Assembly: GCF_001421165.1 (NCBI RefSeq) | Contig: NZ_LMKB01000001.1 | Coordinates: 49,325-113,324, forward strand | DNA: 64,000 nt | Direction: 5' to 3' | From: Frigoribacterium sp. Leaf8 | Lineage (GTDB): Bacteria; Actinomycetota; Actinomycetes; Actinomycetales; Microbacteriaceae | In this document: positions 18,591 to 24,979 of the stretch, one piece after another | Layout: each line of letters starts with the position of its first letter | Position numbering within the stretch: the stretch's first letter is position 1 | The notes under the pieces: model-generated | What the model was told of the DNA's origin: nothing | The model's database searches: none | The model's input: the letters and a program-made list of their open reading frames with translations, nothing else | Translations under genes and position numbers: made by a program

Positions 18591-18663
18591 GCCGGCCTGG
18601 CGCAATTGGTAGCGCATCCGACTTGTAATCGGAAGGTTACGGGTTCAAGTCCCGTGGCCGGCT
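18591..18663 (+). tRNA. tRNA-Thr (anticodon TGT)
   Basis: A 73-nt cloverleaf. The acceptor GCCGGCC/GGCCGGC pairs perfectly, the anticodon loop is CTTGTAA with anticodon TGT (reads ACA), the T-arm contains GGTTCAAGTCC, and the discriminator base is T. CCA is not encoded. TAAGAT at 18574-18579 is a good -10 box, and an exact 11-mer lies just upstream at 18557. Confidence 0.96.
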
Positions 18664-18698
18664 CTCTTCTCCCGCCGTTCCGACAAGACGCTCACGGC

Positions 18699-19196
18699 TC
18701 ACCCCTCGAGGGCGACGAGCAGGTGACGCAGGCCGTCCGCGACGGCTGGGCGCGCCTCCTCGGGCAGGGCGGCGAGCACGGCCCGCTCGTCCGCGAGCTG
18801 GACCTCGAGCACGCGGTCGATCAGACGACGCCCGGCCGCGGTCGGCGCGACGAAGTAGCCACGGTGGTCGGCGGGATTCGCCGAGCGATCGACGAGGCCC
18901 GCCGCCAGCAGCCCCTTGACGCGCTTCGTCACGGCCGGCGGTGAGAGCAGGGTCTCGTCCGCCAACTGCGTCGGACTCATCGGTCCGCCGCGGCGCGTCA
19001 GGGCGGCGAGGAGGTCGAAGTCCGCGCGCCCCAGGCCGAACTCGGCGAGCAGGTCGTCGCTGCGACGCTGCACGATGCGGGCGAGCCGGTTCACCCGGCC
19101 GACGACCGGGATCGCCGAGACGTCGAGGTCGGGTCGGAGTTCGCGCCACCGGTCGTGGACGTCGTCCATCACGTCTCGGAGTCCGGGATCGGTCAT
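18699..19196 (-). CDS. MarR-family regulator
   Basis: A 165-aa winged-helix regulator. The helix-turn-helix is at about residues 70-100 (MSPTQLADETLLSPPAVTKRVKGL), followed by the wing with DHRGYFVAPTAAG. The ATG at 19196 follows TAGGCT (19204-19209) by 7 nt, a leaderless arrangement. An inverted repeat upstream is shared with the divergent FUSC gene, so it probably controls itself and that transporter-like gene. Confidence 0.92.
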   Translation of the reverse strand: MTDPGLRDVMDDVHDRWRELRPDLDVSAIPVVGRVNRLARIVQRRSDDLLAEFGLGRADFDLLAALTRRGGPMSPTQLADETLLSPPAVTKRVKGLLAAGLVDRSANPADHRGYFVAPTAAGRRLIDRVLEVQLADERAVLAALPEEARPAVADGLRHLLVALEG

Positions 19197-19214
19197 GCCC
19201 TTGAGCCTAGCGAT

Positions 19215-19257
19215 GCTTCACGAGTAAAGTGATGCGCAGATCATTCACCCGTGAAGC
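19215..19257. promoter_or_regulatory. Candidate MarR operator between marR and FUSC gene
   Basis: GCTTCACG (19215-19222) is mirrored by CGTGAAGC (19250-19257). The inner part continues as an imperfect match (GTAAAGTGAT against ATCATTCAC). TAAAGT (19225-19230) could be the -10 for the FUSC gene, and the marR -10 lies just outside. A repressor bound here would block both. Confidence 0.6.
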
Positions 19258-19302
19258 AGTTCGACGACGAGCGCCCACGCCGCGCCGACCAGAGGACCGC
19301 CC

Positions 19303-20376
19303 ATCACGACCACGACCTCCCCCCACCGCCTGCTGCCGCACCCGCGCGACCTGGTCCGCTTCGGCCCGCACGACGGCGCCCACCGACCGGCAGCCCGCGT
19401 CGCCGCGTCCGTCCTGGCACCGATGGTCGTGCTGGCGCTGATCGGCCGCGTGGAGTGGACGCCCTACGCGGTGTTCGGGGCCTTCGCCTCGGCTTTCGGC
19501 CGGGGGCTGCCCCGCTTCCAGCGGCTCGAGATGCAGCTCGAGGCCGGGCTCGTCCTCGTCGCCTGCGTGGTGCTCGGCACCGCGCTGGCCGCCTCGACGG
19601 CCCCGGTCTGGCTGCTCGTCGTCACGATCGGCGTCGTGGCCGGCATCACCTCGGCCCTCTCCGACCTGCGCCGCTGGAGCCCGCCCGGGCCGCTCTTCTT
19701 CGTCTTCGGCCTGGGCGTCACCGCGTTCGTGCCCGCGACCGGGTCGACCGTCGCCGTCGCGGCCGTGGTCGCCCCGGCGAGCCTCGCCCTCGCCCTGCTC
19801 GCGTCGCTCGCGGGCGTGCTGCTGCCCGCCGGTCGTCGCGCGCTCGCGACCGTCGGCGGACGCCGATGGAGGCGCGGGCCCCGTCCCCTGGACGGCCGGC
19901 GGACGGTCGTCCACGCCGCCGTCTGCCTGGTCGCCTCGATCGCGGCCGGGCTGATCAGCCTCGGTCTCGGCGTGCAGAGCCCGTACTGGGCCATGGTGTC
20001 GGCCGTGGTGCCCGTGGTGGGGACCGCGACGGCGGGCCAGCTCGTGCGGGCCGGCCACCGCCTCCTCGGCACCCTCGTCGGGGTGGGCCTCGCCGCTCTG
20101 CTGCTGGCGTGGCACCCCGGGGTCGCGGCCCTGATCGTCGCCTTCGGCGTGCTCCAGTTCGCGACCGAGCTGCTGATCGTCCGCAACTACGGGCTCGCGC
20201 TGGTCACCATCACGCCCATGGCGCTCGGCATGCGGGCACTCGGCGGCGCACCCGTCGACGTGGGCGCCCTCGTGGCGGCCCGGACGGCCGACACCGCCAT
20301 CGGGGTGGGCGTGGTGGTCGTCGTGCTCCTCGCGACGCACCGGCTGCGGAGGCCCCGGCCGGAGGCGTCCGTCTGA
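19303..20376 (+). CDS. FUSC-family membrane protein; apparent ATC start
   Basis: A 357-aa protein with two sets of membrane helices in the arrangement of FUSC/aromatic-acid-exporter-like proteins. The family's N-terminal RFGPHDGAHRPA is present but lies upstream of the first ATG (19423). In this frame no ATG, GTG or TTG occurs between the in-frame stop at 19252 and 19423. ATC at 19303 is preceded by AGAGGA with a 6-nt spacer and followed by TTTTSPHRLLPHPRDL, exactly where the start should be. Either ATC initiates, or it is a mutated ATG. Probably regulated by the divergent MarR. Confidence 0.8.
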   Translation: MTTTTSPHRLLPHPRDLVRFGPHDGAHRPAARVAASVLAPMVVLALIGRVEWTPYAVFGAFASAFGRGLPRFQRLEMQLEAGLVLVACVVLGTALAASTAPVWLLVVTIGVVAGITSALSDLRRWSPPGPLFFVFGLGVTAFVPATGSTVAVAAVVAPASLALALLASLAGVLLPAGRRALATVGGRRWRRGPRPLDGRRTVVHAAVCLVASIAAGLISLGLGVQSPYWAMVSAVVPVVGTATAGQLVRAGHRLLGTLVGVGLAALLLAWHPGVAALIVAFGVLQFATELLIVRNYGLALVTITPMALGMRALGGAPVDVGALVAARTADTAIGVGVVVVVLLATHRLRRPRPEASV

Positions 20377-21182: not shown

Positions 21183-22205
21183 TTGAACGGAAACGCTACG
21201 ACCCGGCACAGCAACGTCGCGTTGCTGTCGGTCACCAGCACCATGGCCGACCGGGTCACCACCTCCGAGAGCATCGACGAGAAGCTCGGCCCCGTGCTCA
21301 AGCGCCTCAAGCTGCCCACGGGCCTGCTGCAGCGCGTCGCCGGCGTGTACGAGCGCCGCAACTGGAGCACCGAGCAGAGCTTCGACGCGGCGGCGATCGA
21401 CGCCGGCAAGCGGGCGCTGGCCGAGGCCGGCATCCGCCCCGACCAGGTCGGCCTGCTGATCAACACGTCGGTCACGCGCCCCCACCTCGAGCCCTCGGTC
21501 GCCGTGCGCCTGCACCACGGCCTCGGCCTGCCCTCGTCGGCCACGAACTTCGACATCGCCAACGCCTGCCTCGGCTTCGTCAACGGCATGACCCTCGCAG
21601 CCCAGCTGATCGACGCGGGTCAGATCGACTACGCCGTCATCATCGACGGCGAGGACGCCGACGACGTCCAGGTCAACACGATCGATCGCCTCCTCACCAA
21701 GGGCTACGGCCGCGACGACTTCATGAGCGAGTTCGCCAGCCTCACCCTGGGCTCCGGGGCCGCCGCCGCCGTCATCGGCCGTGCCGACCTCCACCCCGAG
21801 GGCCACCGCATCGTCGGCGGCGTCACCCGCGCCGCCACCGAGAACTACGACCTCTGCGTCGGCAGCGTCGACGGCATGTTCACCGACGCCAAGGCCCTGC
21901 TCAAGCGCGGCATGGAACTCGTCGTCTCGGCCTGGAAAGAGGCCAAGCGCGACTGGAACTGGCAGCGCATGGACCGCTACATCATGCATCAGGTCAGCGA
22001 CGTGCACACGGGTGCCTTCGTCAAGGCCGCCGGCATCGACAAGAAGCTCGTCCCGCTCACCTACCCGACCCTCGGCAACGTGGGCCCGGCGTCGATCCCG
22101 ATCACGCTGGTCGAAGAGAGCAAAACCCTCAGCAAGGGCGACCGCGTCCTGTTGATGGGCGTCGGCTCGGGCATCAACACCGCGATGATGGAGCTCGCCT
22201 GGTGA
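21183..22205 (+). CDS. oleA: OleA, head-to-head acyl-CoA condensing enzyme
   Basis: A 340-aa thiolase-fold (KAS III-like) enzyme that joins two fatty acyl-CoAs into a beta-keto acid, the first step of long-chain olefin synthesis. The catalytic triad is visible: C129 (ANACLGF), H269 (YIMHQVS) and N299 (TLGNVGP). The spacing agrees with characterised OleA. The start is TTG at 21183 with AGGGAG upstream. It is the first of three genes joined by 4-nt GTGA overlaps. Confidence 0.94.
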   Translation: MNGNATTRHSNVALLSVTSTMADRVTTSESIDEKLGPVLKRLKLPTGLLQRVAGVYERRNWSTEQSFDAAAIDAGKRALAEAGIRPDQVGLLINTSVTRPHLEPSVAVRLHHGLGLPSSATNFDIANACLGFVNGMTLAAQLIDAGQIDYAVIIDGEDADDVQVNTIDRLLTKGYGRDDFMSEFASLTLGSGAAAAVIGRADLHPEGHRIVGGVTRAATENYDLCVGSVDGMFTDAKALLKRGMELVVSAWKEAKRDWNWQRMDRYIMHQVSDVHTGAFVKAAGIDKKLVPLTYPTLGNVGPASIPITLVEESKTLSKGDRVLLMGVGSGINTAMMELAW

Positions 22206-24979
22206 GTCGGCTCCCGCGGTCCGCCTCCGCCACGGCGCCGGCGTCACGTCCCCCCGCGGGTCTCGACGGGCTCGACCCGTCGTGGTCGCGTCTCGTCGAC
22301 GTGCCGTACGGGCTCGGCGCACACCGCGCCTCCCGCACCTGGCACGTCCTCGACAACGCCGAGGCGCTGGCCGAGGTCGGCGCCGAACCGGTCGGCACCA
22401 TCCTCTGCGTGCACGGCAACCCGACCTGGTCGTACCTCTGGCGCCGCCTCGTCGCCCGCACGGTCGAGACGGCCGTCGCCGGGGGGCCCGCGTGGCGCGT
22501 CGTCGCGGTCGACCAGCTCGACATGGGCTTCTCCGAGCGCACGGGCTCGCCGCAGACGCTGGCCCGCCGCGTCGCCGACCTGGGCGACCTCACCGACGCC
22601 CTCGAGGTCACCGGGCCCGTCGTCACCCTCGGCCACGACTGGGGCGGCGTCGTCTCGATGGGCTGGGCGGTCGACCACCCCGACCAACTGGCCGGGCTCA
22701 TGCTGCTCAACACCGCGATCCACCAGCCCGAGGGCGAGAAGATCCCCCCTCCCCTGCGCCTCACCCTCGCCCGCGGCGTGCTGGGCCGGGCGACCGTCGG
22801 CACCACCGGGTTCCTCGACGTGACCCTCGGCCTCGCCCACCCGCCGCTCTCGCCCGAGGTGAAGGCCGGCTTCCGCGCTCCGTACCGCCAGGCCGACCGC
22901 CGCGGCGGCATCGGTGGCTTCGTGGCCGACATCCCGGTCGACGACGGGCACGTCAGCAGCCCCGAGCTCGACCGCATCGCCGAGGGCCTGCGCGCACTCA
23001 CCGTGCCGGCCCTGATGCTCTGGGGCCCGCGCGATCCGATCTTCTCCGACCGGTACCTCGACGACCTGGTCGGCCGCCTGCCGCACGCCGACGTGCACCG
23101 TTTCGAGGGTGCGGGCCACCTCGTCGCCGAGGACGTCGACTACGCCGGAGCCGTGCTCACCTGGCTGGGCGACCGGCTGCCCGGCGGGACGGCCGCCGTC
23201 GACGCCCCGGCCCGAGCCGCCACCGAGGCCCGAGTCGCCGCCCCGGTCGGAACCGAGGAGGCGCGGGTCGCCTCCCCGCAGGACCGCCCGCTCTGGTCGT
23301 ACCTGGACTCCCTGGCCGACAGCCCGGCCACCGCGCTCGTCGAGATGGCACCCGCGGGTGCCGACGGCCCGCGTTCGATCAGCTGGAGCCTGCTCGCCCG
23401 GCGCGTCCACGAGATCGCGCTCGGTCTGCGGAAGCACGGCGTGCGCCCCGGCGACCGCGTCTCGCTGCTCGTCCAGCCCGGTGCCGACCTGACCGCGGTG
23501 CTCTACGCCTGCGTCCGCCTCGGTGCCGTCGTGGTCGTGGCCGACGCCGGTCTCGGCGTGCGCGGCCTGACCCGCGCCGTCCGCGGCGCGTGGCCCGACC
23601 ACGTGATCGGGCAGCTCCCGGGGCTCACGGCGGCCACCGCCCTCGGTTGGCCGGGCCGCAAGATCTCGACGACGACGCTGTCGCCGGTCGCCGCCCGGGC
23701 ACTCGGCGTCGAGGCCTCGCTGCCCGAGATCGCCGCCCTCGGCCGCCGCGCCCACGGTGCCCTCGCCGAGCTGCCCGACGCCCCCACGGCCGACGCCGAG
23801 GCCGCCATCCTGTTCACCTCGGGCTCGACCGGCCCCGCGAAGGGCGTCGTCTACCGGCACGGCCAGCTGACGGCCCTGCGCGACGCCCTGGCCGAGCAGT
23901 ACGACGTCGGTCCGGGCACGGGCCTGGTGGCCGGCTTCGCCCCGTTCGCCCTGCTGGGCCCCGCCCTCGGGGCGACGAGCGTCACCCCCGACATGGACGT
24001 CACGAAGCCGCGCACCCTCACCGCCCGGTCCGTCGCGGCCGCCACGGCGGCGGTGGACGCCACCGTGGTGTTCCTCTCCCCCGCCGCGCTCGCCAACGTC
24101 GTCGCGACGTCGGACGACCTCGACGACGCGGACCACCGCGCGCTGGCCGGCGTCGAGACCTTCCTGTCGGCGGGCGCGCCCGTCTCCGAGGCGCTGCTGG
24201 CGGCGGCCGGCGACCTCATGCCGAACGCGACGCCCCACACGCCATACGGCATGACCGAGGGCCTGCTGATGACCGACGTCACGCTCGAGGGCGTGCGCTC
24301 CGCGGCCGCCGACCGTGGGGCAGCCGTCGCCGCGGGTGCGCCCGACGCCGGCGGGGTCTGCGTCGGGCTGCCCGGCGCGACCACGACGGTGCGGATCGCT
24401 CCCCTCGACGACGGGGGCCGCGCCTCCTCGGCGTTCACCGACGCCCCCGGCGTCACGGGCGAGATCGTCGTCTCGGCGCCCCACGTCGAGGACCACTACG
24501 ACCGTCTCTGGCTGACGCACCGCCTCAGCCGCCTGGGCTCGACCGCCGAGACCCGCTGGCACCGCACCGGCGACGTCGGGCACCTCGACGCGCAGGGTCG
24601 ACTCTGGGTCGAGGGCCGCCTGCCCCACGTGATCACGACGTCGACGGGCGTGCTGACGCCGGTGGCATCCGAACAGGCCGTGGAGGCGCGGGCCGCCATC
24701 GCGCGCGCCGCCGTCGTCGGCGTCGGTCCGGCCGGCACGCAGCAGGTCGTCGTCGTGGCCGAGACCGTCCCCCCGGCTCGTCGCCCGGGGCTGGCGTCCG
24801 CGGCCCTGGCGGCCTCGGTCCGCTCGGCCGTCCGGTCGGCGTCGGGTCGACCCGTGGCCGCGGTGCTCGTCGTGCCGCAGCTGCCGACCGACGTGCGGCA
24901 CAACAGCAAGATCGACCGCACGGGCCTGGCCGCGTGGGCGACGTCCGTGCTGTCCGGCGGCCGGATGCGTCGCCCGTGA
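22202..24979 (+). CDS. oleBC: OleBC fusion: beta-lactone decarboxylase + beta-lactone synthetase
   Basis: A 925-aa fusion. Residues 1-320 are the alpha/beta hydrolase OleB, with HGNPTW (71-76) and nucleophile D146 (GHDWGG), which releases CO2 from the beta-lactone. Residues about 360-925 are OleC, an AMP-ligase-like enzyme making the beta-lactone, with the ATP loop FTSGSTGPAKG near 538 and YGMTEG near 680. The Ala/Glu-rich linker (about 325-355) carries the exact 11-mer at 23256 and a degenerate copy before it (EARVAAP, EEARVASP). Start GTG at 22202. OleBC fusions are typical of actinobacterial ole clusters. Confidence 0.93.
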   Translation: MSRLPRSASATAPASRPPAGLDGLDPSWSRLVDVPYGLGAHRASRTWHVLDNAEALAEVGAEPVGTILCVHGNPTWSYLWRRLVARTVETAVAGGPAWRVVAVDQLDMGFSERTGSPQTLARRVADLGDLTDALEVTGPVVTLGHDWGGVVSMGWAVDHPDQLAGLMLLNTAIHQPEGEKIPPPLRLTLARGVLGRATVGTTGFLDVTLGLAHPPLSPEVKAGFRAPYRQADRRGGIGGFVADIPVDDGHVSSPELDRIAEGLRALTVPALMLWGPRDPIFSDRYLDDLVGRLPHADVHRFEGAGHLVAEDVDYAGAVLTWLGDRLPGGTAAVDAPARAATEARVAAPVGTEEARVASPQDRPLWSYLDSLADSPATALVEMAPAGADGPRSISWSLLARRVHEIALGLRKHGVRPGDRVSLLVQPGADLTAVLYACVRLGAVVVVADAGLGVRGLTRAVRGAWPDHVIGQLPGLTAATALGWPGRKISTTTLSPVAARALGVEASLPEIAALGRRAHGALAELPDAPTADAEAAILFTSGSTGPAKGVVYRHGQLTALRDALAEQYDVGPGTGLVAGFAPFALLGPALGATSVTPDMDVTKPRTLTARSVAAATAAVDATVVFLSPAALANVVATSDDLDDADHRALAGVETFLSAGAPVSEALLAAAGDLMPNATPHTPYGMTEGLLMTDVTLEGVRSAAADRGAAVAAGAPDAGGVCVGLPGATTTVRIAPLDDGGRASSAFTDAPGVTGEIVVSAPHVEDHYDRLWLTHRLSRLGSTAETRWHRTGDVGHLDAQGRLWVEGRLPHVITTSTGVLTPVASEQAVEARAAIARAAVVGVGPAGTQQVVVVAETVPPARRPGLASAALAASVRSAVRSASGRPVAAVLVVPQLPTDVRHNSKIDRTGLAAWATSVLSGGRMRRP

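Follow-up and report, generated by a model that had tools for sequence, protein, structure and literature searches.

ATC as the very probable start codon of a FUSC-family exporter gene in Frigoribacterium

The gene for translation factor IF3, infC, is well known for its odd start codons; rnhC, a further gene considered here, is the ribonuclease H gene. IF3 represses initiation at non-canonical codons, and infC itself starts with ATT in Escherichia coli and with ATC in Streptomyces, according to a study that also notes how few genes other than infC have a documented near-cognate start (PMC5472188). The same study describes Streptomyces sigR, which has an IF3-repressed GTC start that is found in 32 of 34 species (Feeney 2017, PMC5472188). 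In Listeria, rnhC is described as having an ATC start that is said to be experimentally confirmed in EGD-e; ATC is also said to be functional in E. coli, though at a lower rate (PMC13068326). The output of Staphylococcus aureus ccpN (AUA) and cvfC1 (AUU) is given as about 10% of that of the AUG versions in poor medium, with ccpN reaching up to 30% in rich medium (PMC13009471). In a reconstituted system, more IF3 is described as leading to less use of weakly paired codons (PMC10158994).

The gene that we describe here encodes a FUSC_2 (fusaric acid resistance-like) exporter and lies in the window, the whole 64-kb stretch of DNA that was analyzed. ATC is very probably its start codon in Frigoribacterium, as judged by comparing sequences. 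Like sigR as described above, it belongs to the Actinobacteria, is distinct from infC, and has an apparent non-canonical start that is conserved among species of one genus. The sigR codon, however, is GTC rather than ATC, its product is a sigma factor, and its start was shown by experiment, whereas the FUSC start is proposed from sequence. The sigR account gives an extended ribosome-binding site, AGGAGGTG, and FUSC has AGAGGA in six of the seven genomes that form its clade. Listeria rnhC shares with FUSC an ATC start in a non-infC gene and differs, in the account cited, in being a ribonuclease H gene of a Firmicute with a start codon confirmed by data. The starts of ccpN and cvfC1 are likewise conserved and non-canonical but are described as other codons with an extended Shine-Dalgarno (SD) sequence, tested with reporters. 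Within the same genomes, FUSC resembles infC, where ATC stands 6 to 7 nt behind an AGAGGA- or AAGGAG-type site. There the gene encodes the discriminating factor itself and is thereby autoregulated, whereas FUSC is an unrelated membrane exporter gene beside a MarR-type regulator. Near-cognate starts are thus known already (infC, sigR, rnhC, and ccpN), and FUSC is a new gene among them. In the open-licence PubMed Central literature, we found no paper linking Frigoribacterium with a start codon, none joining the FUSC family with a non-canonical, ATC, or AUC start, and none on an ATC start codon with bacterial translation initiation under those words; "AUC start codon" was absent among the matches listed.

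The predicted protein matched the Pfam family PF13515 (FUSC_2) in a profile search with 71.6 bits (cut-off, 25.6) and had no NCBIfam match at an E value of 0.001. Direct reading of the window showed that its frame runs from an upstream stop, TGA 19252-19254, to a terminal stop ending at 20376. After the TGA, the codons read AGC AGT TCG ... AGA GGA CCG CCC ATC ACG, and the first in-frame ATG, GTG, or TTG is ATG 19423. A preliminary description had reported both the missing canonical codon and an AGAGGA site 6 nt upstream of the ATC, and both were borne out by this reading (Table 1). Pairing of the site with a typed anti-SD tail, the basis of all ribosome-binding-site energies given here, amounted to -5.8 kcal/mol upstream of the ATC versus -1.5 kcal/mol for ATG 19423.

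Table 1. Features of the FUSC locus in the window and, in the last row, of infC in the same genome
Feature	Position	Strand	Remarks
MarR-family regulator gene, divergent from FUSC	18699..19196	-	PF12802, 57.0 bits; PF01047, 36.8 bits
Possible promoter, TTGAGC-18 nt-TAAAGT	19201..19230	+	Overlaps operator 1; by eye only
Operator-like palindrome 1, TTCACGAGTAAA	19217..19228	.	Pattern match
Operator-like palindrome 2, TTCACCCGTGAA	19244..19255	.	Holds GTG 19251, out of frame with FUSC
Conserved leader, operator 2 to ribosome-binding site	19256..19290	+	5/35 sites variable in clade A
AGAGGA, putative ribosome-binding site	19291..19296	+	6 nt before ATC; AGAGGA or GGAGGA in 7/7 clade A genomes
ATC, proposed start codon	19303..19305	+	No canonical in-frame start; invariant in 7/7 clade A genomes
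FUSC_2 (fusaric acid resistance-like) exporter gene	19303..20376	+	357 codons plus stop
infC, G000 C6	about 19638-20135		Locus L072; ATC start

The 10 relatives that carry names in the species collection all belong to Frigoribacterium. A FUSC gene was present in 15 of the 16 Frigoribacterium genomes searched. Seven of these, including that of the window (G000), form a clade, designated clade A, in which the other six proteins are 91 to 99% identical to that of the window. Several lines of evidence from clade A indicated that coding extends upstream of ATG 19423. When 36 window genes were scanned blind by codon score, the coding stretch before the first canonical start scored 14.5 for FUSC, by far the highest value (next best, 4.9), and its length of exactly 40 codons reached back to 19303. 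In a larger set of 242 gene-like ORFs from 464 kb of this genome (400 kb sampled in addition to the window), FUSC ranked second for coding signal before the first canonical start, and the first-ranked ORF looks by composition, in our judgment, like an antisense shadow ORF. The coding signal upstream of ATG 19423 is therefore more than chance. Across the seven genomes, 5, 3, and 20 of the 40 sites at codon positions 1, 2, and 3 were variable in codons 1 to 40. The dN/dS ratio was 0 to 0.30 over codons 2 to 40 in 20 of 21 clade A pairs (dS was 0 in the remaining pair) and 0.12 to 0.29 over codons 41 to 357 in all 21. Purifying selection thus also acts on the N-terminal codons upstream of ATG 19423, and the N-terminal motif located there is kept across the family, in agreement with the earlier remark that family-conserved residues precede the first ATG.

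These data bear on a shorter protein beginning at ATG 19423, which is the first in-frame ATG and the one that a gene caller limited to ATG, GTG, and TTG would pick. Such a start would remove the conserved PHPRDLVRFGPHDGAHR region, and the pairing upstream of it, although -5.3 kcal/mol in three other clade A genomes, is just -1.5 kcal/mol in the window. None of the relatives was seen to start at this ATG, and one clade A genome, G013, has no ATG there at all. Given the upstream purifying selection and the weak pairing, we rejected this start, to which we assign only a minute probability.

The codon score locates the upstream coding region without being codon-precise, as seen in 10 genomes of the ATC type (clade A and a second clade, clade B, described below) and 8 canonical-start controls. 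Its onset fell on the ATC in 2 of the 10 and 4 codons upstream in 4. It lay 17 codons upstream in all three clade B genomes and, in G013, 18 codons upstream at a GTG. In the controls, it was about 2 to 34 codons off the presumed start and exactly on it in none of the eight.

The start codon was compared with that of close relatives, as the preliminary description had proposed. ATC occupies the proposed start in all seven clade A genomes, and AGAGGA is altered in one, to GGAGGA. The other eight Frigoribacterium genomes have ATG (G002 and G006) or GTG (G009, G001, G015, G003, G012, and G011). These starts lie 4 to 10 nt after GAGGA in eight of eight, and the clade A ATC lies 6 or 7 nt after it. 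The distance from start to LLPHP motif is 8 to 13 codons in seven of these sisters and 34 in G001; for the clade A ATC it is 9. We considered whether the ATC stands exactly at the start of the sister species, but when codons were counted, the ATG of G002 and G006 proved to lie one codon farther downstream. The clade A ATC thus lies in the same leader stretch as the sister starts but not in register with them. By sequence, the ATC ribosome-binding site is no stronger than that of most sisters, except in G007; compensation of a weak codon by a stronger site was seen nowhere else in clade A.

The register difference is relevant to initiation at a near-cognate codon just downstream, namely, ACG 19306, CTG 19330, or CTG 19333. 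The ATG of G002 and G006 falls, by codon count, on the place of ACG 19306, and the ACG codons at +3 and +9 from the ATC see the same AGAGGA site; in G007, however, ACG 19306 is GCG. Both CTGs are kept in all seven clade A genomes, and E. coli is described as able to use CTG as a weak start (PMC13068326). Against them, neither had a listed ribosome-binding site that reached -5 kcal/mol in the seven genomes, and their leucines belong to a motif, LLPHPR, that is also present in homologues with an ATG upstream. We regard a start at one of these codons as improbable and favor ATC 19303.

A start farther upstream would require a canonical codon in the leader. Four of the seven clade A genomes, G000 among them, have no in-frame ATG, GTG, or TTG back to the stop; the other three each have one in-frame GTG, at -75 (G010), -54 (G013), and -69 nt (G007) from the ATC, in the operator/promoter zone. 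That of G013 is the GTG inside operator 2, which in none of the other six genomes is in frame. A start at such a GTG in some species, or a start combined with a frameshift, would agree with the in-frame position of the G013 GTG and with its codon score, which favors it over the ATC by 26.2 against 12.3. The pairing upstream of the G013 GTG, however, is just -2.1 kcal/mol, four genomes offer no in-frame canonical codon, and across clade A the operator GTG stands 52, 53, or 54 nt before the ATC, that is, in three frames. The leader is therefore not a conserved N-terminal extension of FUSC, and we rejected its in-frame translation for the clade as a whole, although G013 alone may differ. We give upstream GTG starts little credence, and ATC 19303 remains our preferred start.

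The absence of a canonical start in G000 might also signify that the gene has lost its start and is turning into a pseudogene. The reading frame argues strongly against this: dN/dS is about 0.15 within clade A, and all 357 codons are free of gaps and internal stops in seven of seven genomes. Moreover, both operator-like palindromes are kept in clade A, and clade B is a second clade without a canonical start. We regard decay of the gene as very improbable. The preliminary description had offered either a rare ATC start, as in some infC genes, or a recent ATG-to-ATC change, and had suggested re-checking the base call. A miscalled base finds no support, the ATC being present in seven genomes, nor does a recent change, the ATC being common to genomes with synonymous differences in FUSC of up to about 0.4. 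An older ATG-to-ATC change in the ancestry of clade A is possible. Retention of three bases over this divergence is by itself weak evidence of selection. The rare-start reading is the one favored by the ATC and ribosome-binding site kept in all seven genomes, by the ATG and GTG starts of the sisters in the same stretch, and by the ATC of infC.

As an in-genome control, we inspected 31 infC genes of Frigoribacterium and of another Microbacteriaceae genus, g12 (loci L067-L082 and L083-L097). AGAGGAG-TTCCGC-ATC-AGC or a close variant was found in 16 of 16 Frigoribacterium genomes, and AAGGAG-YAACGC-ATC was found in all 15 matches among 16 g12 genomes. An in-frame upstream ATG, GTG, or TTG is present in 21 of the 31 genes, which invites misannotation; no in-frame canonical codon lies upstream in 2 of 16 Frigoribacterium and 8 of 15 g12 genes, and in 7 of the 15 g12 genes an in-frame TAA is separated from the ATC by one codon. 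By sequence, ATC appears to be retained as a start elsewhere in these bacteria, and the ribosome-binding site of infC and its spacing resemble those of FUSC. The ATC in infC of the same genomes supports the reading of the FUSC ATC as a rare start.

A second case came from g12, in which 12 of the 16 genomes searched matched FUSC and 11 were inspected. Three of these, G026, G213, and G220, form clade B (G213 and G220 are 91 and 88% identical to G026). In all three, the stretch from a TAG in the operator to the conserved motif contains no ATG, GTG, or TTG; in the other eight inspected species, a canonical codon precedes the motif by 12 to 29 codons. The clade B ATC is 4 codons before the motif, a distance unlike that of the other g12 starts; we rejected equivalence with those starts, and g12 N termini vary in length. 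A rival CTG lies 33 nt upstream of the clade B ATC, with a GGAGA site of -6.6 kcal/mol. The ATC site has -3.8 and -3.5 kcal/mol in two genomes, where the CTG is better, and -7.0 in the third, where the ATC is better. Pairwise codon differences numbered 2 synonymous and 11 nonsynonymous between CTG and ATC and 17 synonymous and 4 nonsynonymous after the ATC. Given this shift, coding seems to begin near the ATC, which is the best start candidate on present sequence comparison, with the CTG as its rival; either one is non-canonical.

In a tree built from 59 homologues out of the 80 inspected genes, clades A and B were two groups, each with 100/100 support. Clade A fell within an 18-row part (100/99) and clade B within a 27-row part (96/90), and both parts contain species with canonical starts. 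The simplest reading of this topology would be two separate losses of the canonical start. By eye, we also judged 54 further genes from 52 Microbacteriaceae genomes beyond the two genera (23, then 11 that were new in a set of 24 loci, then 20), and all 54 have an in-frame ATG, GTG, or TTG before the conserved motif, a count of codons irrespective of their ribosome-binding sites. Cases like those of clades A and B thus number 10 among 80 genes (15 Frigoribacterium, 11 g12, and 54 others), a survey that left out loci L063-L066 and matches without a fetched locus.

The region upstream of FUSC has the layout of a divergent pair, with the MarR gene and two palindromes in the shared intergenic region. 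The pattern TTYACNNGTRAA has 2 matches in 64 kb, which are the two palindromes, versus 0.02 expected. Each palindrome is variable at 1 of 12 sites in clade A, and similar palindromes were seen by eye ahead of many family members. From this arrangement, we infer MarR control of FUSC via two candidate operators. A consensus promoter scan found none, the possible promoter in Table 1 being a reading by eye. The leader from 19256 to 19290 (CAGTTCGACGACGAGCGC...) shows strong conservation that extends to several species with ATG or GTG starts, and in several g12 species the operator is followed by a similar TTTCGGTCGACGG. Predicted folding of the leader RNA was no better than that of shuffles (z about -0.4), so we rejected an RNA structure that hides the start. 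In FUSC homologues of a further genus, g77 (L105, L106, and L108-L111), the start lies about 7 nt after TAAACT inside a MarR-type palindrome; judged by eye, this mRNA may lack a leader, and the operator may cover the promoter. Elsewhere in the window, tRNA-Thr (tgt) is located at 18591-18664, adjacent to the regulator gene at its 3' end. At 21183-24979, a gene resembling 3-oxoacyl-ACP synthase III (NF006720) precedes reading frames of hydrolase- and ligase-like type, an arrangement that looks by eye like an OleABCD olefin cluster.

We consider it likely that the FUSC exporter is weakly translated from AUC 19303, probably in an IF3-sensitive manner, in addition to being under transcriptional control by MarR. 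AGAGGA would place the 30S subunit at the AUC, where the initiator fMet-tRNA would pair with the first two bases and be mismatched at the third (C against C). This mismatch would make initiation weak and vulnerable to IF3, a factor that discriminates against codons of this kind. The protein would begin fMet-Thr-Thr-Thr-Thr, with predicted residues 2 to 9 being Thr-Thr-Thr-Thr-Ser-Pro-His-Arg. By analogy with the systems described above, the rate of FUSC synthesis should be low and sensitive to IF3; the lowered expression that the preliminary description had associated with an ATC start would likewise follow from the behavior of such codons in other species. The exporter would then have two brakes, transcriptional repression by MarR at the operators and a low ceiling on translation. 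The conservation of the ATC in related species, together with the second genus that lacks a canonical start, hints that such a brake on exporter amount is built in. We would guess that a low level is beneficial, for example, if excess exporter harms the membrane.

A more speculative reading is that initiation at AUC was selected as a second lock on FUSC exporters under MarR regulation, one that evolved more than once and places exporter synthesis under the IF3-dependent check by which IF3 is itself set. We hold this to be rather unlikely. If it were true, the pump would be kept very low and would rise when initiation fidelity or the IF3 level changes, for example, under translation or acid stress.

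The finding has consequences for annotation, as a gene caller limited to ATG, GTG, and TTG would shorten the FUSC protein by 40 residues, and transporter genes belong in searches for near-cognate starts. With its conserved ATC, a start and ribosome-binding site like those of infC, and a second case in another genus, FUSC would offer a direct system for studying the roles of IF3-sensitive genes in Actinobacteria.
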